A stretch of DNA of 64,000 bases from Lucinisca nassula (lineage: Eukaryota > Mollusca > Bivalvia > Lucinida > Lucinidae), in contig OY757013.1 of assembly GCA_963580285.1 (NCBI GenBank), positions 132,553,027-132,617,026 on the forward strand, in the 5' to 3' direction. The notes beneath the pieces were generated by a model. The model was given only the letters and a program-made list of their open reading frames with translations. It was not told the origin of the DNA and made no database searches. The stretch's first letter is position 1. Each line of letters begins with the position of its first letter. The position numbers and the translations under genes were made by a program. Below, in pieces: positions 1,003 to 58,760 of this stretch.

Positions 1003-1224
1003 ACAGATAAAAATAGGTTAATATTTGCTTGCAGACTGCAAAGATATTTAAGTTCCAAAGCGTGGAAGACAGACGACGGACAACAAAGGACGTCAACAGT
1101 CGATGACAGATGTTAGAAGACTCTCATCCTATAAGCTCCTCAAAATATGTTCTATAAAAGGGTTATCCTTTGGAAGCAAGGAATACACCACAGAAGTGAA
1201 AAATATGGAGTGTTCATGTTTTCT

Positions 1225-1270
1225 GGGCCAGACTAGCTAGTTTCGGCCAATTAGGCCTCATCAGTGACCC
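1225..1270 (-). ncRNA. Hammerhead ribozyme, minimal type, unit 1
   Basis: On the minus strand the order is stem I (gggtca pairing with tggccc), ctgatgag, stem II (ggcc loop ggcc), cgaaac, a very short stem III (tagcta) and the cleavage triplet gtc. All conserved core bases are present. PLEs are known to carry such ribozymes with a tiny stem III. Confidence 0.85.
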
Positions 1271-1485
1271 TCAGATATTTTCGAAATTCCACAAAGGAAT
1301 CAATGATCCCAAAGGACAAGAAAATATAATCTACACTATGATGTAGGGCAGGGAGACGTTTTACCGCCGCCACACATTCCCACACACCAGCTGTAGTGAA
1401 GTTAAATATGTTCTATAAAAGGGTTATCCTTTGGAAGCAAGGAATACACCACAGAAGTGAAAAATATGGAGTGTTCATGTTTACT

Positions 1486-1531
1486 GGGCCAGACTAGCTA
1501 GTTTCGGCCAATTAGGCCTCATCAGTGACCC
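1486..1531 (-). ncRNA. Hammerhead ribozyme, minimal type, unit 2
   Basis: Same core and stems as the copy 261 bp away, with cleavage triplet gtc. Stems I and II are fully paired apart from one G-U-type position in stem I. Confidence 0.85.
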
Positions 1532-1746
1532 TCAGATATTTTCGAAATTCCACAATGGAATCAATGATCCCAAAGGACAAGAAAATATAATCTACACTAT
1601 GATGTAGGGCAGGGAGACGTTTTACCGCCGCCACACATTCCCACACACCAGCTGTAGTGAAGTTAAATATGTTCTATAAAAGGGTTATCCTTTGGAAGCA
1701 AGGAATACACCACAGATGTGAAAAATATGGAGTGTTCATGTTTTCT

Positions 1747-1792
1747 GGGCCAGACTAGCTAGTTTCGGCCAATTAGGCCTCATCAGTGACCC
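1747..1792 (-). ncRNA. Hammerhead ribozyme, minimal type, unit 3
   Basis: Third copy in the array. The core ctgatgag...cgaaac...gtc is intact and stem III is the palindrome tagcta. Confidence 0.85.
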
Positions 1793-1915
1793 TCATATAT
1801 TTTCGAAATTCCACAATGGAATCAATGATCCCAAAGGACAAGAAAATATAATCTACACTATGATGTAGGGCAGGGAGACGTTTTACCGCCGCCACACATT
1901 CCCACACACCTTTGG

Positions 1916-4319: not shown

Positions 4320-4705
4320 AGAACGAATATCGGAGACTCGGTTTTATTGAGTCTCTTTATACACAGTAATATAGCTTTCAAGGCTGCATACCCCTCCTAG
4401 CACCGGCGTAAGCTTAATTCGATTTTCAAAGTAACTAGAATGGGCTCAATGATCCCAAAGGGCTCAATTATCCCAAAATAAAATAAAATAAAATCTGCAC
4501 TATGATGAAGCACGGGGAGACTTTTTACACCCGCCACACGGCTCTGAACACCAGCTGCAGTGAGGTAAAATAAAAGGCTAAAAGGTTGCATTTGGAAACA
4601 AAGTACACATACAAGAACGTAAATCGGAGACTCGGTTTTATTGAGTCTCTCCATACACAGTAATATAGTTGGCATGGCTGCATGCGCCTCTTAGCTACGG
4701 CTTTT
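4320..4705 (-). repeat. Diverged PLE terminal-repeat fragment with flanking direct repeats
   Basis: Two 85-bp direct repeats (about 4321-4410 and 4616-4700, with 'ggttttattgagtctct') flank a segment. That segment resembles the PLE pLTR: 'ctatgatgaagcacggggag', 'ccgccacacggc' and 'cagctgcagtgaggt'. No ribozyme core is left in this copy. Confidence 0.45.
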
Positions 4706-5879: not shown

Positions 5880-6090
5880 TACATCATAGTGTAGATTATA
5901 TTTTCTTGTCCTTTGGGATCATTGATTCCACTGTGGAATTTGAAAATATCTGAGGGTCACTGATGAGGCCTGAATGGCCGAAACTAGCTAGTCTGGCCCA
6001 GAAAAAAATGTACACTCCATATTTTTTCAGTTCTGTGGTGTATTCCTTGCTTCCAAAGGATAACCCTTTTATAGAACATATTAGACATCT
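5880..6090 (+). repeat. PLE terminal repeat (pLTR), inverted relative to the adjoining RT
   Basis: Matches the 261-bp unit of the 1.1-1.9 kb array, here on the plus strand, while the RT fragment next to it reads minus. It carries an intact hammerhead ribozyme. Confidence 0.75.
5954..5999 (+). ncRNA. Hammerhead ribozyme in PLE pLTR
   Basis: gggtca-ctgatgag-gcc...ggc-cgaaac-tagcta-gtc-tggccc. The core is complete, stem I has six pairs, and stem III is the tagcta palindrome. Confidence 0.85.
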
Positions 6091-9337: not shown

Positions 9338-9990
9338 AGAGTTATGGTTTATATGTTCTGCGTGTCGTCTCGTGGTGTTCAATATATCTGTATAGTTTCA
9401 TGGAAATATCTCAAACGGCATCGAAGTTATGGCGCGGATACGAAACTATTACAGAAATGGCTATGTTCAATGTTCAAAGGGCAACAACTTCAAAATTGAG
9501 AAAATCAGAGTTATGGTTAATATGTTCTGCATGTTGTCTCATAGTGCCCTGCATATCTGTGAAGTTTTGTGAAAATATCTGAAATGGTATCAGAGTTACG
9601 GAGCGGACACGAAACTGATAGCAGCAGCTAAACGTCAAAGTTCAAATGGCAATAACTCCAAAAAGTATGAAGATAGAGTTATGGTTCATGTGTTCTGCAC
9701 ATCGTCTCATGGTGCTCTACATATATGTGAAGTTTCATGGAAATATCTTAAATGGTACCGAAGTTATGTAGCGGACACGAAACTATGACAGGAATGCTAT
9801 GTTCAGAGGGCAACAACACCAAAAGTAGGAAAATCAGAGTAACGGTTCATATGTTCTGCACCTCATCTTATAGTGCTCTACATATCTCAAATAGTATCAG
9901 AGTTACGGAGCGGTTACGTAACAGATAGTAGCAGCTATATTCAAAGTTCAAAAGGTAATAACTAAAAAAGTTGGAACATTAGAGTTTTGA
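9338..9990 (+). repeat. Degenerate ~180-bp tandem repeats
   Basis: Four diverged units share 'gttatggttcatatgttctg', 'agtttcatggaaatatctc' and 'ggcaacaactccaaaa'. Another unit and a half lies at 10330-10600, beyond an inserted PLE terminal repeat. The small ORFs across this area are a by-product of the repeat. No gene. Confidence 0.6.
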
Positions 9991-10326
9991 AAACATGTAG
10001 ACTCCATATGTTCCAGTTCTGTGGTGTATTCCTTGCTTCCAAAGGATAACCCTTTCTAGAACATATTTATCGTCCTAACAGCTGTTGTCTGGGAATTTGT
10101 GGTTGCCGTAAAACGTCTCCCTGTCCTACATCATAGTGTAGTTTATATTTTCTTCTCCTTTGGTATCATTGGTTCCATTGTGGAATTTGAAAATATTTGA
10201 GGGTCACTGATGAGGCCTAAATGGCCGAAACTAGCAAGTCTGGCCCAGAAAACATGTACACTCCATATTTTTCAGTTCTGTGGTGTATTCCTTGCTTGCA
10301 AAGGATAACCCTTTCTAAAACATATT
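9991..10326 (+). repeat. PLE terminal repeat inserted in tandem repeats
   Basis: Carries 'tattccttgcttccaaagga' twice (about 10026 and 10285), a hammerhead core between them, and 'acgtctccctgtcctacatc'. It splits the ~180-bp tandem repeat block. Confidence 0.7.
10201..10246 (+). ncRNA. Hammerhead ribozyme, stem III mutated
   Basis: The core ctgatgag...cgaaac...gtc and stem I are present, but stem III reads tagcaa instead of tagcta, losing a pair in an already minimal stem. It is probably impaired. Confidence 0.7.
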
Positions 10327-10639
10327 TATGGTTATCACAGATGGTACATATCTGTGAAGTTTCATGGAAATATCTCAAACGGTATCGAAGTTATGGAGCA
10401 GACACGAAACTATGACAGAAATGGCTATGATCAATGTTCAAAGGGCAGCAACTCCAAAACTAGGAAACACAGAGTTACGGTTCATATTTCGGTAAAGTTT
10501 CGCGAAAATATCTCAAACGGCATCAGAAATATGGAGCGGACACGAAACTATGAGGCGCTGACGGACGGATGTACGGGCGGATACTCAAAACTTCGGAGGG
10601 TATGACATAATACCCCTCCATTTTTTGGAAGGCGGAGCA

Positions 10640-11510: not shown

Positions 11511-11833
11511 GAGGTTTGCTCTTAAAGGAACTGATTTTTGATTTTTATTTGCCGTGTAGCAGTGAATGCAGCTGGTGTTGTGCCGTGTGGCGGCGGTAAA
11601 ACGTCTCCCCGTACATCAACCATAGTGCAGTTTATATTTTACTTTTGTTCCTTTGAGATCATCGTGAATATTCTGAGAAATCAGAAATAAATCATTGGTT
11701 TAGACTCATACTAGACAGGTTTTTAATTATTTGGACCCCTTTTGGATTTATATCAGTCTTTGAATCGACTGCCTATTCGAAATTCGCAAAATTGCAGTAC
11801 GTTTCCTCTGGCTTTCTTTGCCGGATCAATACA

Positions 11834-11879
11834 GGGTCACTGATGAGGCTTTATTAGCCTAAACTACGTAGTATGGCCC
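11834..11879 (+). ncRNA. Hammerhead ribozyme, inactive-looking
   Basis: Subfamily with stem III tacgta. The essential gaaac has changed to taaac, which should abolish cleavage. The triplet is gta. Confidence 0.75.
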
Positions 11880-12147
11880 ATCTTCTTTCTTATGAATGCT
11901 TTCATTGCTCTTAAAGGAACTGATTTTTTATTTTTATTTACCGCTCTAAACCCCAGTTTTACTATATAAAAGTGAGGTTCAAGGTGGTCAAAACTACATA
12001 GGCATGTTTGCGTGATGTAGCATCTGCAAGATTTTTATTAACCCTTATCCTGCTGAATATTTAAATTAGCCACACCCTTTTTTGACTATCAGCCAATCAG
12101 ATTACATGATAAAATATTTTTGTTCAAATTCAACAATTGAATGACAA

Positions 12148-23006: not shown

Positions 23007-23206
23007 ATTTCAGATATTAAAAGTAAAATGTTAATAAATGATGAAAAAAGGGTCGTATAAATATTTTGAAAACAAACAAACAAAAAAGAAAATAATAAAG
23101 ACATTGAAAGGTACAACACACAGGACTCGAATTCCAGACCTCTCGTTTTTAAAACGAATACGCTACCCTCTACCAATACATATTCATCGCATCTATTTAA
23201 ATAATT

Positions 23207-23490
23207 ATGTTCTATAATGGGTAATCCTTTGGGAGCAGAACTGGTAACTGTGTTTCTGGTCCAGACTAGCTAGTTTCGGCCAAAAAGGCATCATCAGTGA
23301 TCCTCATTTATTTTCAAAATTCCTCAGTGGAATCAATGATCCAGAAGGACTAGAAAAAAATAACCCACACTATGATGAAGGACAGGGAAACTTTTTGCGG
23401 CCGCCACACATTCCCCTTAAGTTAAATGTGTTCTGTAAAAAGTGTACTCATTTGGATGCAAGGGAAGAACAGAACAGAAAACTGTAGAGT
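23207..23490 (-). repeat. PLE terminal repeat, diverged
   Basis: Matches the 261-bp unit (tgttctataatgggtaatcc; ccacactatgatgaaggaca). It contains a damaged hammerhead. Confidence 0.6.
23258..23304 (-). ncRNA. Hammerhead ribozyme, degraded
   Basis: The gaaac, tagcta and gtc parts are intact, but ctgatgag has become ctgatgat and stem I pairing is weak. Confidence 0.55.
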
Positions 23491-23659
23491 GTACGAGTTC
23501 TTATTTTTGTCTACTTACTTGATCTAGCCGAGTTACGGTAATGCTCGACGCTGAAAATATCCAACGCGGTTTACCGTGTAATATTCACGGTTTTGGGTTA
23601 ATTTGAACAAACAAAACTACTTTGATGACCAAATACGATCTATTAAGTAGAACGATTCT

Positions 23660-28444: not shown

Positions 28445-28603
28445 TTATCAGAAATAAATTATTGGTTTAGACTCATATTCTAGACAGGTGTTTAATAATT
28501 TGGACCCCAGTTTGATTTATATCAGTCTTTGAATCGACGGCCAATTCGAAATTCGCAAAATTACAGTATGTTTTCTCTGGCTTTCTTTGCCGGATCATTA
28601 CAT

Positions 28604-28647
28604 GGTCACTGATGAGGCTTTATTAGCCGAAACTACGTAGTTTGACC
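28604..28647 (+). ncRNA. Hammerhead ribozyme, tacgta subfamily
   Basis: ggtca-ctgatgag-gc...gc-cgaaac-tacgta-gtt-tgacc. The core is intact and stem I is fully paired. Confidence 0.85.
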
Positions 28648-28985
28648 CATCTTCTTTCTTATGAATGTTTTCATTGCTCTTAAAGGAACTCATTTTTGAT
28701 TTTTATTTGCCTTCACTGCAGCTGGTGTTGTGCCGTGTGGCGGCCGTAAAACGTCTCCCCGTACATCAACCATAGTGCAGTTTATATTTTACTTTTGGTC
28801 CTTTGAGATCAGCGTGAATATTCTGAGTAATCAGAAATAAATTATTGTTTTAGACTCATATTCTAGACAGGTGTTTAATAATTTGGACCCCAGTTTGATT
28901 TATATCAGTCTTTGAATCGACGGCCAATTCGAAATTCGCAAAATTACAGTATGTTTTCTCTGGCTTTCTTTGCCGGATCATTACA

Positions 28986-29031
28986 GGGTCACTGATGAGG
29001 CTTTATTAGCCGAAACTACGTAGTTTGACCC
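28986..29031 (+). ncRNA. Hammerhead ribozyme, tacgta subfamily, best-paired copy
   Basis: gggtca and tgaccc form a perfect six-pair stem I. Core ctgatgag...cgaaac is intact, triplet gtt, stem III tacgta. Confidence 0.88.
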
Positions 29032-29092
29032 ATCTTCTTTCTTATGAATGTTTTCATTGCTCTTAAAGGAACTCATTTTTTATTTTTATTTG

Positions 29093-35908: not shown

Positions 35909-36160
35909 ACACAATATGTACCACCTATAGGGCCCCTAAAAAATTTTTTTTTAGCTTCTCCAGACCACCCCCTAAAAAAAATTTTTTTAGCTTCTTCAGA
36001 CCACCCTAAAAAATAGCTTCTTCAGACCACCCTAAAAAATAGCTTCTTCAGACCACCCTAAAAATAGCTTCTTCAGACCACCCTAAAAATAGCTTCTTCA
36101 GACCACCCTAAAATAGCTTCTTCCAGACCACCCACTATAAAGGGCCCCTCGAAAAATTCT
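35909..36160 (+). repeat. Polinton left terminal inverted repeat
   Basis: The first 36 bp match the right end exactly in inverse. Inside, a 24-26-bp unit (agcttcttcagaccacccta plus A-run) is repeated about seven times between 35953 and 36128. The outer part ends with ataaagggcccctcg. Confidence 0.92.
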
Positions 36161-36177
36161 TTAAACTCAGTAATCTG

Positions 36178-37109
36178 TTATTCTTGTTCATAAAAACTAC
36201 CTTTGATTTCTACGCCTTTTAAATCATTTATTTTATAAGTAACATGATTTGTATTTAAAACTTCTTCAACTACAAATATTTCTCTTGTCCAACGAGTTGT
36301 ATAACCCTTTTCAAATTTACCTTTCTTTTTTGTTATTCTTACTCTATCTCCAACTTTGAATTTAGGTTTTTTAATTTTCTCATCATTTTCTGGGTATAAA
36401 TTTTTATACACTGTTAATTCATTTTCTACTTTACTCGCTTCAACAGGTGTCATTTTAATAGAAGAATGCACTGTTTTTATATAATTTTAAACTAATTCAT
36501 CTAATACATCATAGTATTTAGTAGTTTCATTTGCAGTAAAATATTTATACATATGTTGTTTCATAGTGCCTATCCATCGTTCTACTACACTAGATTTTTC
36601 TTCATTTTCAGTTGAATATAACTCTATATTATTATCTTTTAACAATTCTTTTACTTGTCGATTATAAAATTCAGATCCTTTATCTGACCAAATATACATT
36701 GGTTTCCTTTCTTTAAATAATGTTCTAAATGCTTCACTTACTGTTACTCCTGTTTTATTTTTTAAAGGAATTAACCAACCATATTTACTAAAAACATCTA
36801 TAACAGCTAATAAATATTTATAGTGTTTATTTTGTTTTGAATATTGTTGCATATCTGCCAAATCAACCGCCCATGTTTGGTCTATTGAATCAACATAAAC
36901 ACGTCTTTTAGGAAAAGATTTTATAACTCTATGATGTAATTCATCTGCTAATTTATTTGTTATTTTGGATATAAATCTATTTTGGTAGATCCACACTCAG
37001 AACATTTACCTTTTAACATTTGTCTATTATTGGCTGTTGTTACTTGTTTCATTGAATCATTTTCAGTATGTTTTTTACAACGTAAACAATATATTTTTGG
37101 ATGTTCCAT
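36178..37109 (-). pseudogene. Polinton integrase with N-terminal zinc ribbon (broken)
   Basis: DDE-type integrase that would insert the element into host DNA. The N-terminal part (37109-36960) is a C-x2-C...C-x2-C zinc ribbon of DUF5679 type (YCLRCKKH ... GKCSECGS). It leads, by a one-base shift near 36965-36996, into the rve core. Catalytic residues by position in the 169-codon core frame are D45 (TWAVDL), D105 (WSDKGSEF) and E139 (VVERW). An in-frame TAA at 36487-36489 separates the core from a C-terminal basic barrel (KPKFKVGDRVRITKKKGKFE) that continues in the same frame to 36178. One frameshift and one stop make it inactive. It is divergent from the polymerase, with 31 bp between start codons. 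Confidence 0.9.
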
Positions 37110-37140
37110 TTTTAATATAATTAAAATTTTTTCTTTAAAA
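37110..37140. promoter_or_regulatory. Divergent intergenic spacer, integrase/polymerase
   Basis: Only 31 bp, almost pure A/T (aatataattaaaatttttt), separates the start of the integrase (minus) and the polymerase (plus). Any promoter for either gene must lie here or inside the genes. Confidence 0.45.
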
Positions 37141-40100
37141 ATGGAAGCAAAAAAGGTACCCGATAGAGAATCTCTTAGTTCTGTATCAGGTAAAAAGTAT
37201 AAGATTATCTTATTTAAAAAATATAAACATAATACAACTATTAATGTCTTTAAGTATAAGATAAAAATACTAGATCCGCAAAAAGAAGTGTTCATGAATG
37301 CATTTAGTAATATGATTGATAATTCTATTAAAGACTTTCCAAATGGGAGAATTAAAATAGTTCCTATACATGAAATTATTTATACAAAACATGATAAATG
37401 GCCTATAAGAACATATGATAATATTAAAGAATTCTTTTTTAATAGAATGGTAAGACTATTAAACAGTGCTGAAGAACTGAATTTAGAAGATGTTATTTTT
37501 GAAGTATCTATTATTCCTAATAAAAAAGGTAAAGGTAAAGGTTTAAAAATATTAGATGAAATAAATAAAAGAAGTATTATACGAATAAAAAATAATGATA
37601 CAATTTGTTTAGCAGGAGCAATTGTAACAGCTATAATTGAAAGGTATGATTTAACAGATTCACAGAAGAAAAATGTTAAAAAAGGTAGACCATTACAAAG
37701 AAGATTGGCTACAGATTTACATGAAAAATCAGAGGTAGAAATAAAAGAAGAAGGTAACGATTTAGATGATCTAAAGGTTTTTGAGAATTATCTTAATGTT
37801 AGAATAATTGTTTTTACATCGAATAATATTGAAAATATTTTATATAGCGGTAATGAAAAATTTGATAATCAATTATATTTATATTATCATGATGATCATT
37901 TTGATGTAATAACTAATGTAACGGGATTTTTAGCTAAACGTAGATTTTGTAAAACATGTTTAATAGGATATAGTAACCAACACACATGTAAAGATGGTAA
38001 ATTACAATCAAATTTAGAACAATGGACTTGTGAAAAATGTAATAAAACTTTTTCTATACAATATCGAAAACCCGAAAAACATATATGTGATGAAATCACT
38101 TGTTCTATATGTTATGAAAAATATATGAAAGGTACTGAACATTTATGTTATATGAAACCTTTATTACCAAAACAAGTAAAAGATAATAAATATATTTATT
38201 TTGATTTTGAAGCTAATCAAAAAACAGGTATTCATATTATGAACTTTTGTATAGCTTATGATTTAGAATATATTTACTGTTTTAGAAAAAACTACATAAA
38301 AATATTTAAATGTGATTTTAATATTAATGATATAGACTTATCAAAATTAGATATAGATAATTGTTTTGATAATGTAGAAAAAATAGAATGTAAATCTGAA
38401 GATGTTGCTAATAACTTTTGTGAATATTTTATAAGAGATAAATTTATAAATAATACATTTATTTCTCATTATGGAAAAGGTTATGACATGCAGCCTATTT
38501 TAGGATGGATGGTACAAAATAAAATAGAACATAATTATATTTCATCAGGATTAAAAATAACTTTAATTAATGTTAATGGAATAAATTTAAGATTTATAGA
38601 TTCTATTAATTTTACGTTATGTGGATTATCTGCCTTCCCTATAACATTTGGTTTTGAAGGTAATAAAGGATACTTTCCTCAGTATTTTAATACATTAGAG
38701 AATCAAAACTATAAAGGTGTTTATCTTGCAAAAGAATATTATGGATATAATACTATGGCAATTAAAAATAAAGAATTATTTGATAAATTGTATAATAATG
38801 TTAAAGATAAAGAATTTAAATTCTATAAAGAAATATTTTATTATTGTTTATTAGATGTTTTAATTTTAGCAAAAAGATGTACAATATATAAAGATTTATT
38901 TATTAAAATAACAGATAATTATATCGATCCTTTTCAAAGTATTACAATTGCAAAATGTTGTACTTAGATATTTAAAACATTGATGCTAAAAGAAGAAACA
39001 ATAGGTATTCATAAAAAATCTACTTTTGAAGAAAATCAATCCAAAAAAGCTATTCAATGGTTAGAATATTTATCAAATAAATAAGGTATAATGATTCAAC
39101 ATTCAAAAAGAGGTGGAGAAAATAAATTATTTATTAATGGTAGATATTATAAACTAGATGGATACTATTATGATGGAGAAACAAAAAACAGAAATATTTA
39201 TGAATTCTTTGGTTGTTATTTTCATAGTTGCCCTAAATGTTATCATCCAGATGAAATTTGTAAAATAAGATCAAGGAAAACAATGAAAGAGTTATACTAT
39301 AATACATTAAAAGGATTAGATATTATTAAAAATTATTTTCATACAAAAGTTAAAATCCATACTATCTGGGAATGCGAATTTGGTAAAAATAAATATCCTG
39401 AAGTCGATCCACATTTAAAACCTCTTAATAAAAGAGATGCATTTTATGGAGGAAGAACAGAAGCTGTACAAGCATATAATAACCTTCCTGGTTTAAAAGC
39501 AAGATATGTAGATTTTTGTTCACTGTATCCATGGGTAAATAAGTTTTGTGACTATCCAATAGGCCATCCTGTTACTTATATCGATGTCTCCATTGAAAAG
39601 TATTTAATAAATAAATATTTTGGAATAATAAAATGTAAAATATTACCACCTAGAGGATTATACCACCCAGTGTTACCTTATAAACAACCTACATATAATA
39701 ATACACACAAATTAATATTTGGATTATGCAAAACTTGTATGACAACATTAGAAATTAAATGTACTCATAAAACAGAAAAAATTGATTCATCGCATGATAA
39801 AGTACATGCAATAAAACATTGTAAAGAATGTAAACATATTAGAAATGAAAAATGTAAACATTCAGATGAAGAAAGAGCAATTATAGGAACTTGGTCTACT
39901 ATTGAAATAAATAAAGCAATGGAAAAAGGATATAAACTATTAAAAATATATGAGTTAGAACATTTTGAAAAAACTTCTAAAACTATATTTGAAAAATATG
40001 TTAATACATTTATGAAGTACAAGCAAGAAGCCTCAGGTTGCGAATGTAATCCTAAATATTGTAAACCTGATTGTAAAAATGATCATGAATGTGAAACAAA

Positions 40101-40914
40101 AATTCAATATATTGCAGATAATACAGCATATGATTTAGATATTGATAAAATTAAAAAGAATGCAGGGTTAAGAGCAATAGCAAAAGATTGTTTAAATTCA
40201 TTATGGGGACATTTTGGAATGAAAGATAATTACACGCAAAAAGAATATTGTTTTAATTCAGATCAATTAACAAACATAGTATTTAATGAAAAAATTGAAG
40301 ATGTTAATTTAATGATATGCCATAATGATACAGTATTAGCAGAATATCAAACAAAAGAATATTATCAAAAACCTAATTCTAGTGTAAATATTTATATTGC
40401 ATTATTTACAACAGCTCATGCTAGATTAAAGTTGTATGAGCTATTAGATATTTTACAAGAAAGAGTTATGTATTTGGATAGTGATTCTTGTATTTATCAC
40501 GATGATTCTTCAGAAGCATGTAAAAAGATAGAATCTATGATGGGTAATAAATTAGGAGATTTAACAGACGAAATAAAATCAAAACATAATGCTAATCATA
40601 TGGTACAATTTGTTTCATCAGGACCAAAAGATTATTCTATGAAATTAGATACAGGTAAAATAGTTAGTTGTTGTAAAGGATTTAGATTAAATGCAGAAGT
40701 AGAAGAAAAGATTACAATGGACAAAAAAGTAAAAATAGTTACTGATGAAAATGAATCATATGAAACAATTGCATATAATCAGATTACAACCAATAAGAAG
40801 GATAGAAATTTAAGAAGTATAGAGCAAGTTAAAATGTATGATTATGAATTTGATAAAAGAATGATACACAATGAAAATGTAAATATAATTAGAAGTTTTC
40901 CTTATGGCTATTAA
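37141..40914 (+). pseudogene. Polinton protein-primed DNA polymerase B (two in-frame stops)
   Basis: Replicative polymerase of the element; 1,257 codons from ATG 37141. Residues below count through the stops. An N-terminal region with CLAGAIVTAIIERYD and YHDDHFDVITNVTGF may be an OTU-like fold. Two zinc clusters follow (FCKTCLIGY, CEKCNKTF, CSICYEKY). The 3'-5' exonuclease has FDFEAN (D355, E357), HYGKGYDMQP and LLDVLIL. Polymerase motif A is DFCSLYP (from residue 791), motif B KDCLNSLWGHFG (from 1015) and motif C YLDSDS (catalytic D1113). TAG at 38965-38967 and TAA at 39082-39084 interrupt one unbroken frame. The 38 codons between them keep the family pattern, so the breaks are recent. The earlier upstream ATG at 36982 lies in the integrase and is not used. 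Confidence 0.93.
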
Positions 40915-41208
40915 AAATTTACTTATAAAAATGAAGAGAAAACGCATCTTTATGAAGATAAAAAACCTATTAGTCCTTACGATGCAGAGGACCCTGATGC
41001 CAAAGTTGTATTAGGAAGAATACTATTTTCTTTTATCCAAAAGAAAATGTTAAAAGATACTGGTAAATGTTATTTAACGGATGCACAACAATTAATAATG
41101 GATAAATTTGAGGGTAGAAAACTATCAAAGTTTCCTGCAGGATGGGATGCTTTTATTAGACCAGATAAAGTTTGGGAATATGTGTATGATGAACCTGCTC
41201 CTCAATAA
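40915..41208 (+). CDS. Small conserved-looking Polinton ORF downstream of the polymerase
   Basis: Directly after the polymerase stop the same frame stays open for 97 codons. It includes SPYDAEDPDAKVVLGRILFS and LTDAQQLIMDKFEGRKLSKF and ends at TAA 41206-41208. Composition is balanced and acidic/basic like a real protein. No start codon exists near its beginning in this frame. An ATG in another frame lies at about 40931, so either a small frameshift has damaged an independent gene, or it is a polymerase extension cut by the TAA at 40912-40914. Function unknown. Confidence 0.5.
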   Translation, partial: KFTYKNEEKTHLYEDKKPISPYDAEDPDAKVVLGRILFSFIQKKMLKDTGKCYLTDAQQLIMDKFEGRKLSKFPAGWDAFIRPDKVWEYVYDEPAPQ

Positions 41209-41228
41209 AGAACATATTTATATTTTAT

Positions 41229-41648
41229 TTAATTTAATTTCCATGCAACAAATCCAGTTAATGCCATACCACCAACAACAAATGCAATCTCTCTATTTTT
41301 CTGGTCTTCTGATGGAGTATAATAATCACTCAACTTTGGTTCAGAAGGTAAAGTTGATAATTGTTTCCCAGTAATATAATAATATTGTTTCATTGCTTGG
41401 TCAACATCTTCGTATGTTTGTTCTGCATGATGTTCTTTTTGTAATTGTTTATTAAGAAAATCTAATCTTTGTGTTCTTTCTCTACTCCATTTTACTTGTG
41501 CTGCTTCTAATTGTTCCATTGCCTTATCATGTATTTCTCTCTCTTTATCAGCATCTTTTCCAGTATGTGAAAACAAATAATTACTACCCGAAAAAGCAAA
41601 GGCATTTACTACTGCTCCACCAAGCATCATCACCACTGCACTCGCCAT
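41229..41648 (-). CDS. Polinton membrane-anchored coiled-coil protein
   Basis: An intact frame of 139 residues. An N-terminal hydrophobic, glycine/alanine-rich segment (residues 1-25, MLGGAVVNAFAFSGSNYLF) is followed by a charged helical stretch of about 60 residues (DKAMEQLEAAQVKWSRERTQ). Then comes PKLSDYYTPSEDQKNREIAF and a second membrane segment at the C-terminus (VVGGMALTGFVAW). It sits first in a minus-strand cluster running through the ATPase and capsid genes. The layout suggests a virion membrane or minor structural protein, but no fold was recognised with certainty. One of few unbroken genes in the element. Confidence 0.7.
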   Translation of the reverse strand: MASAVVMMLGGAVVNAFAFSGSNYLFSHTGKDADKEREIHDKAMEQLEAAQVKWSRERTQRLDFLNKQLQKEHHAEQTYEDVDQAMKQYYYITGKQLSTLPSEPKLSDYYTPSEDQKNREIAFVVGGMALTGFVAWKLN

Positions 41649-41651
41649 TTT

Positions 41652-41852
41652 TTACTTCATAATATCAGCTGGAATAATTCCTTGTTTAACTAACATATCT
41701 CTTGTTGTCATTGCGAACAATATATCAATAAATAACATACCAATATCCGCCATATTAAAATCTACTTTTGGTGGTTGTCTTCTCAATAGTTTTCTTCCTA
41801 ATTCTGCATATCCAACCGTTAATAGTGTTTCCACTCCGGCATGATATAACAT
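41652..41852 (-). CDS. Polinton small hydrophobic protein (66 aa)
   Basis: An intact short frame with HAGVETLLTVGYAELGRKLL and a hydrophobic segment IGMLFIDILFAMTTRDMLVK. The open frame extends 12 or more codons upstream of the first ATG (KATQIDGKQIVN), so the original start may have been lost. It ends 3 bp before the start of the neighbouring coiled-coil gene. Probably a membrane-associated virion component; function unknown. Confidence 0.6.
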   Translation of the reverse strand: MLYHAGVETLLTVGYAELGRKLLRRQPPKVDFNMADIGMLFIDILFAMTTRDMLVKQGIIPADIMK

Positions 41853-41908
41853 GTTTACTATTTGTTTTCCATCAATTTGTGTTGCCTTTTTTTATAAGAA
41901 TTTTTTGA

Positions 41909-42238
41909 TTACTTAAACTCAAATGGGTCTATTTCTTTCTTTTCCTTTTGTGGTGGAATAGGTGCAGGTGTACCTTGTTTCTTATTATAAATATATAATC
42001 CCAATCCAACAACTACAACTGATATACATAATGGTATGTAATTTTTGTATATATTTACACGTTGAACTTCTTTAACTTCATCATCATCTTTTGTTATAGA
42101 TTTTAATTGTATGTTCTCTTTTTTCATTGCTTCCGTTTCTTTTCTTTTTAATTCAGCTTTCATTTTTTTTGCTTCCGCACCTTTTTTACCAGCAGCTACT
42201 CGTTTTGGGTTTTTCGTTTTTTCATTTATTTCACTCAT
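41909..42238 (-). CDS. Polinton basic, single-pass membrane protein (109 aa)
   Basis: The N-terminal half is rich in Lys/Ala (RVAAGKKGAEAKKMKAELKR). A short acidic linker follows, then one transmembrane span around residues 68-85 (YIPLCISVVVVGLGLYIYNK), a proline-rich stretch and an acidic end (KKEIDPFEFK). A Lys-rich, DNA-binding-like head on a membrane anchor could serve core or membrane attachment; this is inference. Its start overlaps the end of the next upstream gene by 8 bp. Confidence 0.65.
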   Translation of the reverse strand: MSEINEKTKNPKRVAAGKKGAEAKKMKAELKRKETEAMKKENIQLKSITKDDDEVKEVQRVNIYKNYIPLCISVVVVGLGLYIYNKKQGTPAPIPPQKEKKEIDPFEFK

Positions 42239-42714
42239 CTTTTTTTAAGTCAATATTTTCACCTTTTTTATCAGTGAAATCAATATGTCTCGCTGTTGTT
42301 AACATTGCAGTAAAAGGAGCAAGATACATTCCATATCTATAATATAATTCACAACATGTGCTAGTCAAAGCGTGATTGATAAAAGGGTCTTCCTCTAAGT
42401 CTTGTATTAATTTAGGTGGATTAACAACATTAAAATATTTTGACACACCCATAACATATAAGTTAATAAAAGAATTACCCAATGTCTTAGTCATACTCGC
42501 TCCTAGTCTTGCTTCGTATCTGCAGTATAGTTTGTTTATTTCTTCTGATGTCATTGTATCAATGTCTGACATTTGTAAGTCTTTACCAAGATATTGTTTA
42601 CTTCCTCCACCGGCAACAATGGCTGCTAATCTTTCACGTTTTTTTTTTTGTCTTCATGGTCATCTCTTTGTTCTGGTAACTCAACATTTTGTAACAATTC
42701 TTCGGCGTTCATTT
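42231..42714 (-). pseudogene. Polinton conserved protein with poly-A frameshift
   Basis: The first 24 codons from ATG 42714 (ELLQNVELPEQRDDHEDK) run into an 11-A tract at 42639-42649. After it the reading continues in another frame with a Gly-rich stretch, then INKLYCRYEARLGASMTKTL and CCELYYRYGMYLAPFTAMLT to 42231. A one-base slip in the homopolymer explains the break. If the base count is a sequencing error, the gene could be intact at about 160 residues. It overlaps the ATPase end by 6 bp, as expected for a co-transcribed cluster. Function unknown. Confidence 0.7.
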
Positions 42715-43350
42715 TATATAATTTATTTTTAATTTTTCAGTAGGTTGGTCGTTTTTCAAAATTAATTTACGATGTTTCTTTTTCTTTAATTCTTCCTTTA
42801 TTCTTTGACGTTCTTCCAATGTAGGAATAACATCATTCTCTCTCAAACAATTTTCAAAACTATCTCTATCTTTTGTGTAGAACATACATAACCACTTTGT
42901 TTGTTCTCTTAAATCTTTCAAAACTGAATTGTATCTTTGCTTTATAACCCATACCGTTTGTTTTGCATGTCTGCCTGAAAAAGCGAGTTCAGACAACATG
43001 TCTTTTTTCTTTGTTAATTCTTTTGTTGCATTACAATCATCAATGATGTATAATGTAGGGGAATTGGCATATTGATTAAAAAACGACCGTAATAGTTCTT
43101 GAAGCTTTTCTGTTCCATCTGATGTTATAGGATTTACGATTATAATATTTTTTGTTTTTGGTTTTTTAACATCCCCAATCCACTCACGATTTTTGTATGC
43201 CATGTTCCATTGAATGGTTGGGCAAAGTATAACAATATGACTAAATACACCTCTATATTCGCCTTCAAGTAAGTCTAAAACAAACTCTGTTTTTCCACAG
43301 CCAGTTTGGCCACAAATAATTGCACAGTGTGGATATTTAGGTAGTTCCAT
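42709..43350 (-). CDS. Polinton packaging ATPase
   Basis: An intact frame of 213 residues. The P-loop is GQTGCGKT (residues 14-21). Walker B is TLYIIDDC (D104, D105). A SGRHAKQTVWVIKQ segment (from residue 126) carries the probable arginine/sensor positions. The C-terminus is Lys-rich. Length and order match the FtsK/HerA-A32-like genome-packaging ATPases of Polintons and related double-jelly-roll viruses, which pump DNA into the capsid. It is next to the capsid gene, the usual arrangement. It is the only long signature gene here without a visible break. Confidence 0.88.
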   Translation of the reverse strand: MELPKYPHCAIICGQTGCGKTEFVLDLLEGEYRGVFSHIVILCPTIQWNMAYKNREWIGDVKKPKTKNIIIVNPITSDGTEKLQELLRSFFNQYANSPTLYIIDDCNATKELTKKKDMLSELAFSGRHAKQTVWVIKQRYNSVLKDLREQTKWLCMFYTKDRDSFENCLRENDVIPTLEERQRIKEELKKKKHRKLILKNDQPTEKLKINYIK

Positions 43351-43359
43351 TTCTATTGT

Positions 43360-44625
43360 TTAATAATGAGGTTCTTTAAATCTTCCATCTTCAAAATTGA
43401 TTTGCGCATCCTGTATTACAAACAGATAAACATTTATTGGTTCATTTCCTCCTGCTTCTTTCGTTATTTGTATTGTTATACCTTCTGAGGCATTTTCTAT
43501 TCTTCTCCCAGAACCGTGAAGATTATTATCGTCCGTTGAACGTAAATCTAATCATAAAGCGTAATTAATCGTTAGATATTTTTCTAGCGTTGTATCAGTA
43601 AAATTTGTATCTTTAATGACCATATTTGTTTCTTTGTTTCTTTTTGAATTTAGGGCAAAGAATTTATTTATTTCGTCCCACTGTTGGTACGATTTCATTC
43701 CTTGACTATATAGTTGATTCGGAATCCCTTCTATAGTCATTTCCACTTTTGTAATTTCTGGATTATAATATTCTTCTGTGCTGGTCCTTTCAGGATCTTC
43801 GAATAGCATGAGAATTCCTTTCATGCTTCTTGCAGGAACATTTAGATTGATATTCCATAGTGTATCAGATTTATTCTTCGTTATTTTTCTATGCCTATGT
43901 ATTCTATCGTATAAAATAACCATTTTGTTACTGACTTGCTGACTTATTTCTCTTGCTAATTCAGTATTAGAAACCATATAAAATTCCAAACAAATATTTT
44001 TGATTGTATAAGTTGAAGTTGCATCTGCTGAATTAATAACTTTCATGTAATCATTGAATGTAAGTTCATATTCTAATCTATCCCCGAGGCCTGCTTGATA
44101 AAATGGCGTATGGGTTTCCAATAATTCAAAATCAAGTGGGATGCAAAACCTGTTTCCATATGCTTTTGCTATAGCCAGATCCTCTTTATCCGCTGTTGCA
44201 TTTTTTGCCCCCACTCTAAGTTTCAACATGTTTGGTTTGCCAATGCCTTGGTATGCCATATTTACGCGTTCTGTAGGAGTCTTCCATAAATCAATATAAC
44301 AATGATAGATGTCACTATCATCAATGGACATAACTTCATTTCCACTTATTCTTATTGTTGTTTTCTTAATTATTGCTCTTCCTATGTTTGGGAATATAGT
44401 GGCATTTGCATCTTTAGAGTTTAGTTCAATTTCAAATGCTAATCTGACCGTTCCGGGAACAATAACACCATTACCACTTAGATTAGGAAATCTCACTAAT
44501 AACTGTTGATTTTGGTCAATAGTTGATGGATTATTGGTTATCACTACACTTTGGCGGATACCTCTCATACCACGTGGTTCTCTTATTTTTCTGTAAGGGT
44601 TTAATTTGTTTCTATAGGTCGACAT
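43360..44625 (-). pseudogene. Polinton major-capsid-type protein with in-frame TGA
   Basis: A 357-codon frame from ATG 44625 ends at TGA 43552-43554, but the same frame stays open for another 64 codons to TAA 43360-43362 with a clear beta-rich ending (GRRIENASEGITIQITKEAG; NVYLFVIQDAQINFEDGRF). Early features are IRQSVVITNNPSTIDQ, PGTVRLAFEIEL and AIIKKTTIRISGNEV. Later come TPFYQAGLGDRLEYELTFND and LWNINLNVPARSMKGILMLF. The last is a hallmark stretch of the capsid-type protein known from invertebrate Polintons (the worm F54H12.2-type family). The neighbouring ATPase supports the role. The nonsense codon would remove the final 15 percent. Confidence 0.85.
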
Positions 44626-44654
44626 TTTTTTAAGGAAAAATTTAATAGTTAAAA
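44626..44654. promoter_or_regulatory. Divergent intergenic spacer, capsid/coiled-coil gene
   Basis: 29 bp of A/T-rich DNA (tttttttaaggaaaaattta) between two start codons, mirroring the other two divergent pairs of the element. Confidence 0.4.
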
Positions 44655-45860
44655 ATGGCTGAAGGATTTGATTTTGAGAATCCTACATTTGACAAAGATG
44701 CCCATGATGATGATGATGATGATATAGATTCCAAATTACCTATGGCCCCTGATGAAATTGATCAGAGTATTATTCTAAATCAGGGTGATATGATTGATGA
44801 CTTAAGAGGAGAGCTCGAACAGACTGCTATTCAACACTATAAAGAAAAACTTGTAAATACGTTTTATGATGAAATAAGCAAGCGCTATCTAATTACGCCA
44901 GACAAAGTAGATTATGATCAGTTTAGATTATCCGATGATAAAACTTTATATTGGGTTGTCGGCGACAAAGAAATCAGAATTACTGCAAAGCAAGGCACAG
45001 CAACATTTCTTTCTTTGGGTTCTTTAGTAAAAGAATACAACCGTGTAGTAGATAGTGGCGGAACCCGGGCAATCAGACTATATTTAAATTTATCACGTTA
45101 TCAAAGCAAAACAAAGATAACACAACAGGCAAGGAGGGCTCTGGGAAGTACGCGAAATGATTTGCTAAATGCTGAAGAACAAATACCACTAAAAGATTTG
45201 TCTTCAACCAAAGATGTGCAAAATGTAGTAGACACAGCAAATAAGGCTGAGACCACTGTTACATCTGTTTTTGATAATTTAGAGCTGCCAGAAGCCAAAA
45301 ATGCACGCACACAAACAGAAGGTCTAACATTAAGAGAACTGCAAGGTCTAGACAAGACACTACAATCTATTCGCGGTGAACTTACAAATAACTTAGCAAA
45401 GCTGACAAACATTGATGATGACATAGCCAAAGAAAAACAAAACTTACAAGAAGCTGAAGATGAAATTAGCAGAAAAGACATAACAGCTCGTTTGAAAAAC
45501 CTTGAAGATGAGAGAGCTGTAAGACTTGAGGCTGCTAGTACAAATAGGGAAGCATTACACACCCAGGTAAACAGAATAAAAGAAACTATAAATAAAGTTT
45601 TGAAAGAAGACACAACATTAGGTGAGAGAATTAAAACATTATTTAGAGAATAAGGCATTACAATTGTTAGTGTTTTAACTGCTTTTGAAATGATTATTGG
45701 TGTTATTGTTGAGGCTGTTATTCCTACTGGTGGCGGCTCTATAACCCCTAAACCACCGTCAAAAGATGGTATAGAAAATTGGATAAAAAAAAACAATTAA
45801 GTAATCTTGGTAAACTATTAGCCAATCTTGCAGGAAATGCAGCAGCAGCTCTTTTGTCTC
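44655..45860 (+). pseudogene. Polinton acidic coiled-coil protein, C-terminally deleted
   Basis: The intact part (44655-45653) has 332 residues. It has an acidic N-terminus (DKDAHDDDDDDIDSKLPMAP), a folded-looking section (residues 60-150, HYKEKLVNTFYDEISKRYLI; SLGSLVKEYNRVVDSGGTRA) and a long coiled coil from about residue 215 (LRELQGLDKTLQSIRGELTN) to the end (NKVLKEDTTLGERIKTLFRE). After TAA 45651-45653 the frame continues with a hydrophobic, Gly/Pro-rich extension to 45800. A shifted frame then gives an Ala/Leu-rich segment to about 45855. The gene therefore was longer. The convergent gene on the other strand is cut at the same point, which suggests a deletion removed both 3' ends. Confidence 0.7.
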
Positions 45861-46816
45861 TAGTGCCAATTTGTAATATCATATCACTGGGAGACATATA
45901 GAGACCAAGTCCATATGTGTAATCAACTTTACTTCTTGCGTATTTCAATACATTTTGATATTTTGATATTTGAGTAGGCAAATCGATTGGACTGTTAATT
46001 GCATCTTGAACATTTGCTAAGAATTGTTTTTGAGCATCAAATCCTGTGCCTATTTTTAGTATTTCTACACGTGTTTGGGATTGTGCTCCTAATAGTGCCC
46101 ATACAAGCGTTCTAATGCTTTCGTTAATTCGTTCAACACCTCGTTTTGTGGAGCCTTCTGATTTGTCTAATATAAACATTGTCCATGCCTCACTTATTTT
46201 TACTGTATGTTCTATTTTATCATTTACACTAAAGAATGGCCCATCACTTTGATGATCTTGTCTGTATTTTCCATTTGGTTTAAAATATTGTCTGTAACTC
46301 CCGAGACCACTACATTTAGAACTACTTTCCAGTTTTTGCCTCCAATCCGTGCTAGGCGAAACATCGAATTAATTGCATAACTTTTGGTATGTTGCTTTGT
46401 CGTATGGGTTTTTGTAATAACAGAATGATACATCTGTCGGTAAAGGTGTTTTAAGTTCTTTCAAAATACGAGCAATACAATAATAAACATGAAATGTATA
46501 TACTGTTTTAGTTAATCCTGAAGTGTTTTGTAAATGGTCTTGTTCTCACTCCACATCCTGCAGTGGCACACCAAACGGCAAAGTTTAATTGACATTGCCA
46601 CCAGTCAAATGATGACTGAAGCCATGTATTCCACGGTTCATTGGTGTGTAATGTTGGATTTTGATAGTTTTGAAATAAGTTGAGAAACGTTACTGGAAAA
46701 TGATCATCTTTGTTAACATAAATTGTTTGTTTTACAAGTTCAATATTCTTTTTGGTATATTTAGTATTGTGGTTATATGGTGCATTGGGATTGTACTTGA
46801 ATTCTTTTGGTATCAT
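45840..46816 (-). pseudogene. Polinton large virion-type protein, broken and truncated
   Basis: Starts at ATG 46816 (IPKEFKYNPNAPYNHNTKYT) and includes TIYVNKDDHFPVTFLNLFQN and a Trp/Cys-rich stretch FDWWQCQLNFAVWCATAGCG. A frameshift occurs near 46545. The next frame has an in-frame TAA at 46369-46371, then runs to QTRVEILKIGTGFDAQKQFL and VDYTYGLGLYMSPSDM near 45890. The remaining codons to 45748 are antisense to the neighbouring gene and look non-native. It is a large conserved Polinton protein of unknown role; a structural role is inferred from its position. Divergent from the gene at 46833 with a 16-bp spacer. Confidence 0.65.
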
Positions 46817-46832
46817 TTTTTATGTGTAAAAA
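46817..46832. promoter_or_regulatory. Divergent intergenic spacer, 16 bp
   Basis: Only ttttttatgtgtaaaa separates the start codons of the genes at 46816 (minus) and 46833 (plus). This is the shortest of three such spacers in the element. Confidence 0.4.
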
Positions 46833-47165
46833 ATGTATCATACAATTTCCGATATTAATAAAACAATATATTTACAACAATATTTAGATAATAAATGCGG
46901 TAATAAGAGAATTGGATTGAAGAGTTTTACTTATACTATAGGTTGGCATAATTTGGCTGATGAATCTATCCAAAAAGGAACAGAAAGACCAATACGTTTA
47001 CCTTCAGGATTTTACAGTTTCCAACAAATAGCAGATATATTTCAAAGTAATAATATTGTATTATCTGTAAATGAAACAAATGGCATAGTGTTGTTTTTTA
47101 GTCTAGAGACTAATAAAACTACAGTTAATACTGTTGTCTCGTTATTAATTGAATTCAAAAAATAA
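46833..47165 (+). CDS. Polinton beta-rich protein, probably chimeric (110 aa)
   Basis: Residues 1-90 look like a compact beta-domain: KTIYLQQYLDNKCGNKRIGL, KSFTYTIGWHNLADESIQKG and LPSGFYSFQQIADIFQSNNI. The last 20 residues (TTVNTVVSLLIEFKK) are nearly the same as the end of the fibre-like gene at 48280-48337, at DNA level too. That suggests a recombination or deletion between two tandem genes which swapped the original C-terminus. Stand-alone structural or attachment function is inferred from context only. Confidence 0.6.
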   Translation: MYHTISDINKTIYLQQYLDNKCGNKRIGLKSFTYTIGWHNLADESIQKGTERPIRLPSGFYSFQQIADIFQSNNIVLSVNETNGIVLFFSLETNKTTVNTVVSLLIEFKK

Positions 47166-47174
47166 ATATAAAAA

Positions 47175-48337
47175 ATGAGTATATTTGGCACTAAAAAGTA
47201 TGGGAATAATCTGGCTTTACGTGTTGATGATTTGCATAGAAAAATAACATATAAATTTACAAAAATAACAGATAAAGTTGATAATTTAAATAGAAAAAAC
47301 AATAAATAATAATATTGATTTAACTTCACGTGTCGGAGATTTACATAAAAAAATAACAGATCATAGTACTTATTTAGAGTTACGTCTTGGTGATTTAGAT
47401 AATAGTTTAGTTTTGCGTTTTGGTGATTTACAAGGAAGAATAACAAAATTAAATAATAGTTTACAAAACATTGATACAAGTGAATACATTACAATAAAAG
47501 CCGAATCAAAAGGCCCACTAACTGTGGGTAAAATATTTTCATTTGGGGATGGAGGTGAAGAGCGAACTGCTGGTTATGTTATGATGAAGGATGGTTATAT
47601 TAAAAGTATTGGCCTGTCGAGTGTATCGTCGCTTGAAGGGGTGATAGTTGGCGTGTTGGTGAATGGGGAACATTTGGAACGGTGCAGCGGATTCGTTTTA
47701 AATAGTGTAACAATAGGCATACATTATAATTTTACCACCCCTTGTTTAGTTAAAGTAGAAGTAAAACAAAGATCAGGAATTGATACAATTAACTTACTCC
47801 ACCCACAAAAGACACCAAAGGGAAAGAAACACAAACACCAAGCGACCAGACCATAATGGAAACCTAAACAAAGGAAGGCCATAAGGACAGTTACTTTCCC
47901 ACAAAATGGCCATATGGCCATCCAAAACCAAAAGACACAAGTGATACACACAGTAAGTAACAAACAACAACATAAATAAATCGCCACAGAAGAGCCGCCT
48001 TGGAACGGTCAGTGGAAGATTTCCACTGGGGGGCTTAAATCGATTTTACGTGGCCACAATCCTCGCCCTTACTTCCGCCGCGATTTAGACAAATAATTTG
48101 TTCAGTCCGCATGAAGGCCTCCTAACTCATCAGTGCAACATCTCCGTGAACACAAACATCAAAGAACCACAGAGGTGAGACAACGGTGAGGACTCGACAG
48201 CAAGAAACCACTGAAATGCTGGAGCAAAAGAAAACCAACAGTTAGAAGCTGGAAGTGTTATTACCTTTGTGAGTGGGCACAATAAAAAAACTGCGACTAA
48301 TACTGTTGTCTCGTTATTAATTGAATTAAAAAAATAA
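47175..48337 (+). pseudogene. Fibre-like coiled-coil protein gene, frameshifted and split by a PLE tail
   Basis: From ATG 47175 the frame encodes repeated heptads (LALRVDDLHRKITYKFTKIT). It is broken by a one-base slip in the A-run at 47294-47299 and continues with LTSRVGDLHKK, LELRLGDLDNSLVLRFGDLQ and GRITKLNNSLQ. A beta-rich domain follows (GKIFSFGDGGEERTAGYVMM; GVIVGVLVNGEHLERCSGFV). A 494-bp PLE tail interrupts it at 47752-48245, and the last 30 codons (AGSVITFVSGHNKKTATNTV) resume after it. Shaft plus head is the layout of a viral fibre or spike. I did not recognise a specific family. Confidence 0.65.
47752..48245 (-). repeat. PLE 3' tail, copy 9, inserted inside the Polinton
   Basis: Nearly full tail (aaagtagaagtaaaacaaag ... 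ctggagcaaaag ... caacagttag), highly similar to copy 1. It landed in the Polinton after the Polinton itself had landed in another PLE tail. Confidence 0.92.
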
Positions 48338-48345
48338 CTATAAAA

Positions 48346-48915: not shown

Positions 48916-48928
48916 GAAATGCTTGATT

Positions 48929-49044
48929 TTATTTAATAAAGTTATAATAATTAATGATCCACCACCTATTTATAGGAGCATAAACTAAATCAATACAAAT
49001 ATGCAGATTTTTACATTCTAATTCTTTGCAAATTTCTTTTACTG
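48929..49044 (-). pseudogene. Short minus-strand ORF remnant
   Basis: An open frame of 38 codons ending at TAA 48929-48931 with VKEICKELECKNLHICIDLV and APINRWWIINYYNFIK. It looks like the end of a real protein, because it has hydrophobic and Cys/Trp residues unlike random AT-rich DNA. No family was recognised and its upstream part is missing. It may have belonged with the repeat ORF next to it. Confidence 0.35.
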
Positions 49045-49055
49045 ACTGTTAAAAG

Positions 49056-49325: not shown

Positions 49326-49329
49326 GACT

Positions 49330-50220: not shown

Positions 50221-50276
50221 AAATCTGTGAAACTTTTTTTAGGTAGAATTCCTCACCGGAGTCCAAGGGATGATTT

Positions 50277-50899: not shown

Positions 50900-51090
50900 T
50901 GCTTGTTTGTTTGTTTTGTATTGGGTTTTAACGGCCCAGTCAACACTGATTAAGGTCATTTTGAGCCGGTCACTTTACCTATACACACCTATCCTGATGA
51001 GGCCTTATCGGTCGAAACTAGCTAGTCTGGCCCGGAAAACATGTACACTCCATATTTTCCAGTTCTATGTGATAACCCTTTCTAGAACTT
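50900..51090. repeat. SINE family S tail fragment followed by PLE terminal-repeat fragment
   Basis: 50900-50966 is a reversed SINE tail. 50978-51090 matches the pLTR with a partial hammerhead at 50991-51033: ctgatgag, gaaac, tagcta and gtc are present, while the 5' strand of stem I is missing. Confidence 0.6.
50991..51033 (+). ncRNA. Hammerhead ribozyme, stem I lost
   Basis: The catalytic core and stems II and III are intact, but the sequence upstream of ctgatgag no longer pairs with tggccc. Probably inactive alone. Confidence 0.6.
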
Positions 51091-51212
51091 ATTATACAGT
51101 ACAGTGCACATTCTTTCGCCAGAAACTGAACACTGCACTTCTTGAATCAGCGGAAGGGAACGAATGACCTAAGGAAAGATTTCATGATCAATTTTCACGA
51201 AAGAATGTTGCC

Positions 51213-58027: not shown

Positions 58028-58582
58028 ATTATTCAGAAAACAGAAATCCATGAAATTGCACTCAAAGAAACTTCTTGTAATTTCTCTTATACAATGTCAT
58101 TTCGACAATGGTTGTTCATTTTTGTATCCAGGCTTACCCAAACTCATGAGAAACAGACAACACGCTACCCAGAATGAAATGATTAGATTTATATTGAAAC
58201 TTAACCCAAGAAAACATATAGGACCCCAAGAGTTAAGATCTTTAGGGTGGTTGCCAGTCTCGAAAAGGATAGATCAGATCATTTTAAATCACATTTTTGA
58301 GATCAAATCCGGAAAGTCACTTGACTTTATGAGATGGCATTGTATTCCTGCTACATCTGCTCATAGATCAGATCATTTTAAATCACATTTTTGAGATCAA
58401 ATCCGGAAAGTCACTTGACTTTATGAGATGGCATTGTATTCCTGCTACATCTGCTCATAGCTACAGCACAAGATTTAGTGAAAACGGCTGTTTTAGTCTT
58501 CCTAAGGTAATGGGTTCCGGCCGAAAAACATTTGCTTATACAGGTGCCAGCTTATGGAACAGATTATGTCGGATCATTACAT

Positions 58583-58626
58583 GGTCACTGATGAGGCTTT
58601 ATTAGCCGAAACTACGTAGTATGACC
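58583..58626 (+). ncRNA. Hammerhead ribozyme, tacgta subfamily, in LINE-inserted pLTR
   Basis: ggtca-ctgatgag-gc...gc-cgaaac-tacgta-gta-tgacc. Core intact, stem I paired. The flanking pLTR piece is 58568-58688. Confidence 0.82.
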
Positions 58627-58760
58627 CATCTTCTTTCTTATGATTGTTTTCATTGCTCTTAAAGGAACTCATTTTTGATTTTTATTTCCACCGAACATTA
58701 AAAACGTAAACGGGCTTAAAACTTTTTAAACGTCTGTAAAATCGCATTTTGAAACTCCCT

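Follow-up and report, generated by a model that had tools for sequence, protein, structure and literature searches.

A 261-bp tandem repeat carrying three hammerhead ribozymes, found in 64 kb of Lucinisca nassula DNA (64,000 nucleotides, here called the window), raises the question of what kind of element it belongs to, and by which route such units reach new sites in the genome. An earlier note on this DNA had likened the repeat to the multimeric units of hammerhead-bearing retroelements. The first part of the question can be answered almost with certainty: hammerheads and unit belong to a non-LTR retrozyme, an element of a kind already known from metazoans. The second part depends on the ends of this array and of its relatives in the window.

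The array and its hammerheads

Tandem Repeats Finder placed the array at window positions 1143-1910, with a period of 261, 2.9 copies and 99% matches (2.94 units of 261 bp), and the tandem repeat reported in the earlier note is thus real. The span given there, 1225-1792, contains all three hammerheads, but the array itself is wider; the strand, absent from that note, is minus. The predicted cuts and the products that they delimit are as follows.

1143..1910, minus strand: the retrozyme array (locus A1), running in ribozyme sense from a 5' end at 1910 to the fixed 3' end at 1143
1223..1272, minus strand: hammerhead 1; predicted cut between 1231 and 1230
1484..1533, minus strand: hammerhead 2; predicted cut between 1492 and 1491
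1745..1794, minus strand: hammerhead 3; predicted cut between 1753 and 1752
1231..1491, minus strand: 261-nt monomer between cuts 2 and 1, from predicted cut positions
1492..1752, minus strand: 261-nt monomer between cuts 3 and 2, from predicted cut positions

The three predicted cuts enclose two complete 261-nt monomers, not three. The unit has a GC content of 41.8% and no coding capacity, its longest stop-free run being 53 codons; a related 383-bp unit, listed below, has a GC content of 37.9% and a longest run of 48 codons. Copies within the array are 98.7-100% alike, and their differences are uninformative on origin from a single circle because, with three copies, any difference sets two against one.

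Each unit carries on the minus strand the motif GGGTCA-CTGATGA-GGCC/GGCC-GAAA-C..G-TC^TGGCCC, which has the layout of a type I hammerhead, with a CUGAUGA ... GAAA core, an NUH cleavage triplet (GUC in all three), helices II and III closed by loops, and helix I, of six pairs, open to the flanks. Helix II has four pairs and a 5-nt loop, and helix III has three pairs, counting A15.1-U16.1, with the palindrome AGCU as its 4-nt loop. All three copies have the same 50-nt motif (folding was run on copy 2), and the core and all 13 pairs are present in every one, in agreement with the intact cores claimed earlier.

The window has 11 matches to the core pattern CTGATGA-N13-GAAA, three of them in the array copies, as against a mean of 0.05 in 100 shuffled sequences. 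A covariance model trained on the eight window hammerheads outside the array, with the array left out, gave each of the three array hammerheads a score of 78.0 bits (E 2.7e-21). It had 14 matches in the window, 11 of them at 56.3-78.2 bits and three at 9.6-9.7. Because this model comes from the same window, its scores are evidence of common descent and structure and not an outside verdict. No Rfam hammerhead family reached its gathering score on the array (RAGATH-1 24.0 bits, cut-off 56.3; HH9 17.6 bits, cut-off 52), nor on the related 383-bp units, where the best score was 24.6 bits against a gathering score of 48.5. The covariance-model search proposed in the earlier note was thus positive with the window-trained model and below gathering with the Rfam models, so the array hammerheads are not filed under any Rfam family; it is the core and helices that define them as hammerheads. 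A core match at 40742 (CTGATGA...GAAAC) was rejected as chance, having no helix II by eye and being absent from the covariance-model matches.

Covariation within the hammerhead alignment is thin, with one pair changed on both sides, a number reached by 341 of 500 shuffles; helix II does contain a compensatory change from C-G to U-A. For copy 2, the best fold of the isolated motif is 1.8 kcal/mol better than the active fold, and in a circle the active fold costs 3.5 kcal/mol (261-bp unit) or 2.6 kcal/mol (383-bp unit). The circular folds are mildly better than those of shuffled sequences, 2 and 3 of 100 shuffles folding equally well; the paired fraction of bases is 64% and 63%, lower than the value of more than 70% reported for other retrozymes.

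Related loci in the window

A BLAST search of the unit against the window revealed eight hammerhead loci holding 11 hammerheads. Five (A1-A5) form a family with the 261-bp unit, family A, and three (B1-B3) a family with a 383-bp unit, family B; what the two have in common is the hammerhead and a block downstream of a fixed end.

5880..6082, plus strand: locus A2, less than one unit; hammerhead 5952-6001, core intact; 5' boundary approximate
9989..10328, plus strand: locus A3, about 1.3 units; hammerhead 10199-10248, core intact; 5' boundary within 2 nt
23202..23499, minus strand: locus A4, an old and divergent copy of about 1.3 units; hammerhead 23256-23305, two broken pairs
50994..51092, plus strand: locus A5, truncated inside hammerhead 50986-51035, helix I lost; internal deletion; 3' end by eye
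11516..11942, plus strand: locus B1, 1.10 units of 383 bp; hammerhead 11832-11881, core mutated
28447..29092, plus strand: locus B2, about 1.7 units of 383 bp; hammerheads 28601-28650 and 28984-29033
58567..58687, plus strand: locus B3, 0.32 unit; hammerhead 58580-58629; sits in a LINE-like reading frame

The core and all pairs are intact in six of the 11 hammerheads (the three of A1, those of A2 and A3, and copy 2 of B2), and the hammerheads of B2 copy 1 and B3 lack only the outermost pair of helix I. Since A1 and B2 alone contain at least two hammerheads each, only these loci could release whole monomers. Segments were compared within and between loci as a sign of whether the units of a locus share a template, with a mixed outcome: those of B2 are alike at 194 of 196 positions, as against 179 of 195 with B1, but the units of A3, 93.6% alike, are hardly closer to each other than to A1 and A2 (91.1-92.4%), no such separation is seen for shorter B segments, and the overlap in A4 is just 7 nt.

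Metazoan retrozymes are described as non-coding tandem repeats of about 150-450 bp with a GC content below 50% and type I hammerheads (PMC7229834). The unit sizes of 261 and 383 bp, the base composition, the non-coding units, the type I hammerheads and the dispersed copies all place the window loci among them, and the likeness drawn in the earlier note extends to the short helix III and to ends of the retrotransposition type.

A fixed internal 3' end

Units were numbered in ribozyme sense, with position 1 directly after the cut. BLAST placed the 3' ends at 88 (A1), 87 (A2), 89 (A3), 89 (A4), 69 (B1), 67 (B2) and 66 (B3), and the end of A5, past its internal deletion, was put at about 87 by eye. 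Position 88 of family A and position 66 of family B are one place in the alignment, TATTT before AACTTCACTACAG or GCCTTCACTGCAG. In family A numbering the ribozyme-sense 3' ends of all eight loci lie at 87-91, and none lies at the cleavage site; they span 4 nt on the common scale, and none of 200,000 sets of ends drawn uniformly at random was as tight. In a global alignment, four of the ends fell elsewhere (A2 94, A3 106, A5 56, B2 127), and these deviations are taken as over- or under-extension, or as the A5 deletion. The 5' ends, roughly mapped, vary over an arc of 193 of the 261 positions, although for A3 and A4 the distance to the cleavage site is no more than about 8-18 nt.

A fixed 3' end with variable 5' ends is also the usual picture for LINEs and SINEs, and retrotransposition of a linear transcript by a LINE-type enzyme, with position 88 as the terminus of the RNA, would produce it. 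Hammerhead repeats of Nematostella carry 15-bp, LINE-like target duplications (PMC4918200), which lends this reading some support. It is nevertheless unlikely for the loci in the window, as five of the eight copies are longer than one unit and run through position 88 without ending there, all eight cross the cleavage site, and none of the eight 3' ends has an A-tail or short tail repeat. Target duplications amount to only 0-3 bp, by eye, at the four loci for which an empty site could be inferred, where the junctions share T residues. For metazoan retrozymes, duplications are described as longer than 4 bp when present, and their absence is allowed (PMC7229834).

The four empty sites are those of A3, B1, B2 and B3. 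Joining the flanks of B3 gives a continuous reading frame; B2 lies antisense in a reverse-transcriptase gene fragment, which it splits between the neighbouring residues 125/126 of P0011; and the repeats that hold A3 and B1 (for A3 a 168-bp tandem repeat) have uninterrupted copies at 71-85% identity. A2 also lies antisense in a reverse-transcriptase gene fragment, with a right flank that does not continue the gene of the left flank. Empty sites sought at A1, A4 and A5 were not obtained. Flanks differ among all eight loci.

These insertions also bear on whether the repeats are simply satellite DNA, amplified by unequal exchange or as circular DNA, with the hammerhead a relic having no role. The tandem order and 99% identity of A1 would suit such an origin, which is however quite improbable, given that single and partial copies are dispersed among different flanks with a common 3' end, that genes and repeats have been interrupted with an empty site inferred at four of the eight loci, and that most hammerhead cores are intact, with the compensatory change in helix II described above. 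Retrotransposition of a retrozyme is the reading pursued here.

A conserved RNA domain around the fixed end

In the predicted fold, the fixed end lies in a single-stranded stretch between a closing helix, P1, and an inner hairpin, P2.

1292..1447, minus strand: P1/P2 RNA domain copy around the fixed end; a further copy at 1553-1708, and a partial one in 1814-1910

The fold was evaluated on an alignment of six units (A1 copy 2, A3, A4, B1, B2 and F1, the last being a hammerhead-less relative). On the ribozyme strand the consensus energy is -9.30 as against a mean of -2.85, with none of 200 column shuffles as low, whereas on the antisense strand 129 of 200 are as low; the four-row subset of A1 copy 2, A3, B1 and B2 gave 0 of 200 and 132 of 200, respectively. 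With seven rows, 93.7% of 221 P1/P2 cells are paired, a value that none of 500 shuffles reaches, and sliding the partners lowers it to 45-53%, a control biased towards the structure, since this was derived from the same alignment. Five pairs are changed on both sides (54 of 500 shuffles reach five), and there are 10 doubly changed paired cells (0 of 500 reach 10); the covariation score was likewise reached by 0 of 500. The rows are few and related.

F1 (4424-4627, minus strand) is a third relative of the retrozyme body, in which the P1/P2 domain is kept, with no hammerhead and no matching end. It adjoins a 102-bp direct repeat, whose copies are 294 bp apart and 84% alike. F1 was excluded from the count of ends; with F1 included, the fixed end is found in eight of nine related loci.

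A proposed route of copying

The explanation that best accommodates these observations, and that is considered likely, is a retrozyme copied by internally started, target-primed reverse transcription of circular or multimeric RNA by a Penelope-like enzyme. An antisense transcript of A1 would cut itself at three sites, freeing 261-nt monomers that a host ligase of the tRNA type would close into circles. Transcription, cleavage and circle formation are proposed because published metazoan retrozymes behave in this way, circles having been described in coral, mussel and axolotl and being closed in vitro by RtcB (PMC7229834). Reverse transcription would then start at a fixed internal site, the single-stranded joint between P1 and P2, on a template that would be either the circle or uncut multimeric RNA, continuous across the cut. 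Priming would be by nicked target DNA, and copying would proceed for less than one to several rounds and then stop, leaving 5'-truncated or multimeric inserts.

An internal start on continuous RNA is very probable in itself. Linear multimers fit the pattern of ends as well as circles do. The Penelope-like element PAc of Anolis needed no hammerhead cleavage in vitro and had uncut RNA as its main substrate (PMC11167929), so circles are not proven necessary.

A possible relation to Penelope-like elements

The identity of the enzyme is suggested by analogy, and on that footing a Penelope-like enzyme is somewhat favoured, because one such enzyme starts internally, 82-89 nt downstream of a hammerhead cut. 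In PAc, reverse transcription in vitro started at +111 to +118, with the hammerhead cut at +29, and RNA to +172 was required (PMC11167929). The distance from cut to fixed end is 88 nt in family A and 66 nt in family B, the comparison with PAc being by distance alone and the family B value falling outside the PAc range. PAc further resembles the window loci in its type I hammerhead, its complete or partial tandem copies and a start tens of nucleotides past the cut, and the RNA 3' of the start, required in PAc, is conserved here as P2; it differs in encoding a reverse transcriptase and a GIY-YIG endonuclease, where the window units encode nothing. Insertion with microhomology at the junction and no target duplication is on record for Penelope (PMC3846280). 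No Penelope element was identified in the 64-kb window, where the reverse-transcriptase fragments could not be placed in a named class.

Given these resemblances, the units might be pseudo-LTR pieces of an autonomous Penelope-like element, as Penelope pseudo-LTRs carry type I hammerheads, are partly tandem and are 5'-truncated (PMC11167929 and PMC3846280). This is highly improbable: after 261 or 383 bp the unit returns to its own start and includes no coding region; the reverse-transcriptase fragments that hold A2 and B2 run in the opposite sense, and B2 interrupts the gene; and Penelope hammerheads are described as minimal, without helix III or loop contacts (PMC7761336), whereas helix III is present here.

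For a retrozyme borrowing such an enzyme, it is conceivable, though put forward tentatively, that retrozymes are SINE-like parasites of Penelope-like elements, in which P1/P2 positions the Penelope reverse transcriptase on a circle made by the ribozyme. If so, the circle would join the start site to a binding domain lying 3' of it and would let copying run round, and tandem inserts, fixed 3' ends and 5' truncation would share one explanation. In PMC7761336, retrozyme repeats are described as having no conserved motif that reveals the autonomous element mobilising them, and Penelope-like elements and Terminons are named as likely candidates because they share type I hammerheads with retrozymes and occur together with them. 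In the open-access literature searched, retrozymes were not found described with a fixed internal 3' end. The element itself is of a known kind; its pattern of ends is a new lead on which element mobilises retrozymes, and the fixed internal 3' end and the surrounding domain point to Penelope-like elements.

Comparison with known retrozymes

The nearest known system, compared by description, is the retrozyme of Mytilus galloprovincialis (Cervera and de la Pena 2020, PMC7229834), which shares with the window loci short low-GC non-coding tandem repeats, type I hammerheads, a bivalve host, two related ribozyme families, and a tetraloop-capped helix III that has two pairs beyond A15.1-U16.1. The 383-bp unit of family B falls inside the 350-390 bp of the mussel retrozyme, and family A is shorter, at 261 bp. 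The fixed internal 3' end and the P1/P2 domain were not found in the available description of the mussel element. Satellite hammerheads of newt and axolotl (same source) are also of type I, with a short helix III and a palindromic tetraloop, in repeats of about 330-350 bp. In axolotl type 1, which performs best as a dimer, helix III is a single pair; here it is one pair longer.

The LTR retrozymes of plants (PMC4918200) are likewise non-coding, bounded by hammerheads, and move via circular RNA. Theirs are type III hammerheads, with LTRs, a primer-binding site, a polypurine tract and 4-bp duplications; the window loci, unlike these, have type I hammerheads, and neither an LTR-type boundary nor a 4-bp duplication was seen in them.

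Integrated copies of a viroid-like or delta-like agent, whose unit-length circular hammerhead RNA would look alike, can hardly account for the loci. Both strands of such agents typically have a ribozyme, and here the antisense strand has no hammerhead in Rfam and covariance-model searches and folds no better than chance; the ends, too, are those of a retroelement. Viral contigs scanned for the hammerhead and for the conserved block gave no matches.

Other features of the window

Reverse-transcriptase fragments, mapped with six relatives, lie at 5.3-6.0, 8.1-8.4, 26.8-27.0, 28.1-29.3, 29.6-29.7, 31.5-31.8 and 34.6-35.5 kb. They belong to a very abundant family (8000 of 8000 scored candidates pass), for which PDB and NCBIfam searches gave no class placement. 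A Maverick/Polinton-like element of 14.7 kb occupies 35909-50566, bounded by inverted repeats (35909-36141 and 50333-50566) that are 93% alike; Pfam matches identify an integrase, a family B DNA polymerase and an A32-like ATPase, with a capsid only below cut-off.

tRNA-like sequences on the minus strand, at 51210-51286 and 63606-63675, are perhaps the heads of tRNA-derived short interspersed elements, and a stretch at about 950-1000 resembles them by eye. A near-perfect inverted repeat at 54273-54359 gives sub-threshold matches to the MIR6426 model (56.2 and 54.3 bits on the two strands; cut-off 96). The open frame at 52409-53446 encodes a DUF268 protein with 726 relatives; among the 120 listed, the named organisms are all bivalves (Saccostrea, Mytilus, Ostrea and Crassostrea), at 53-70% identity.
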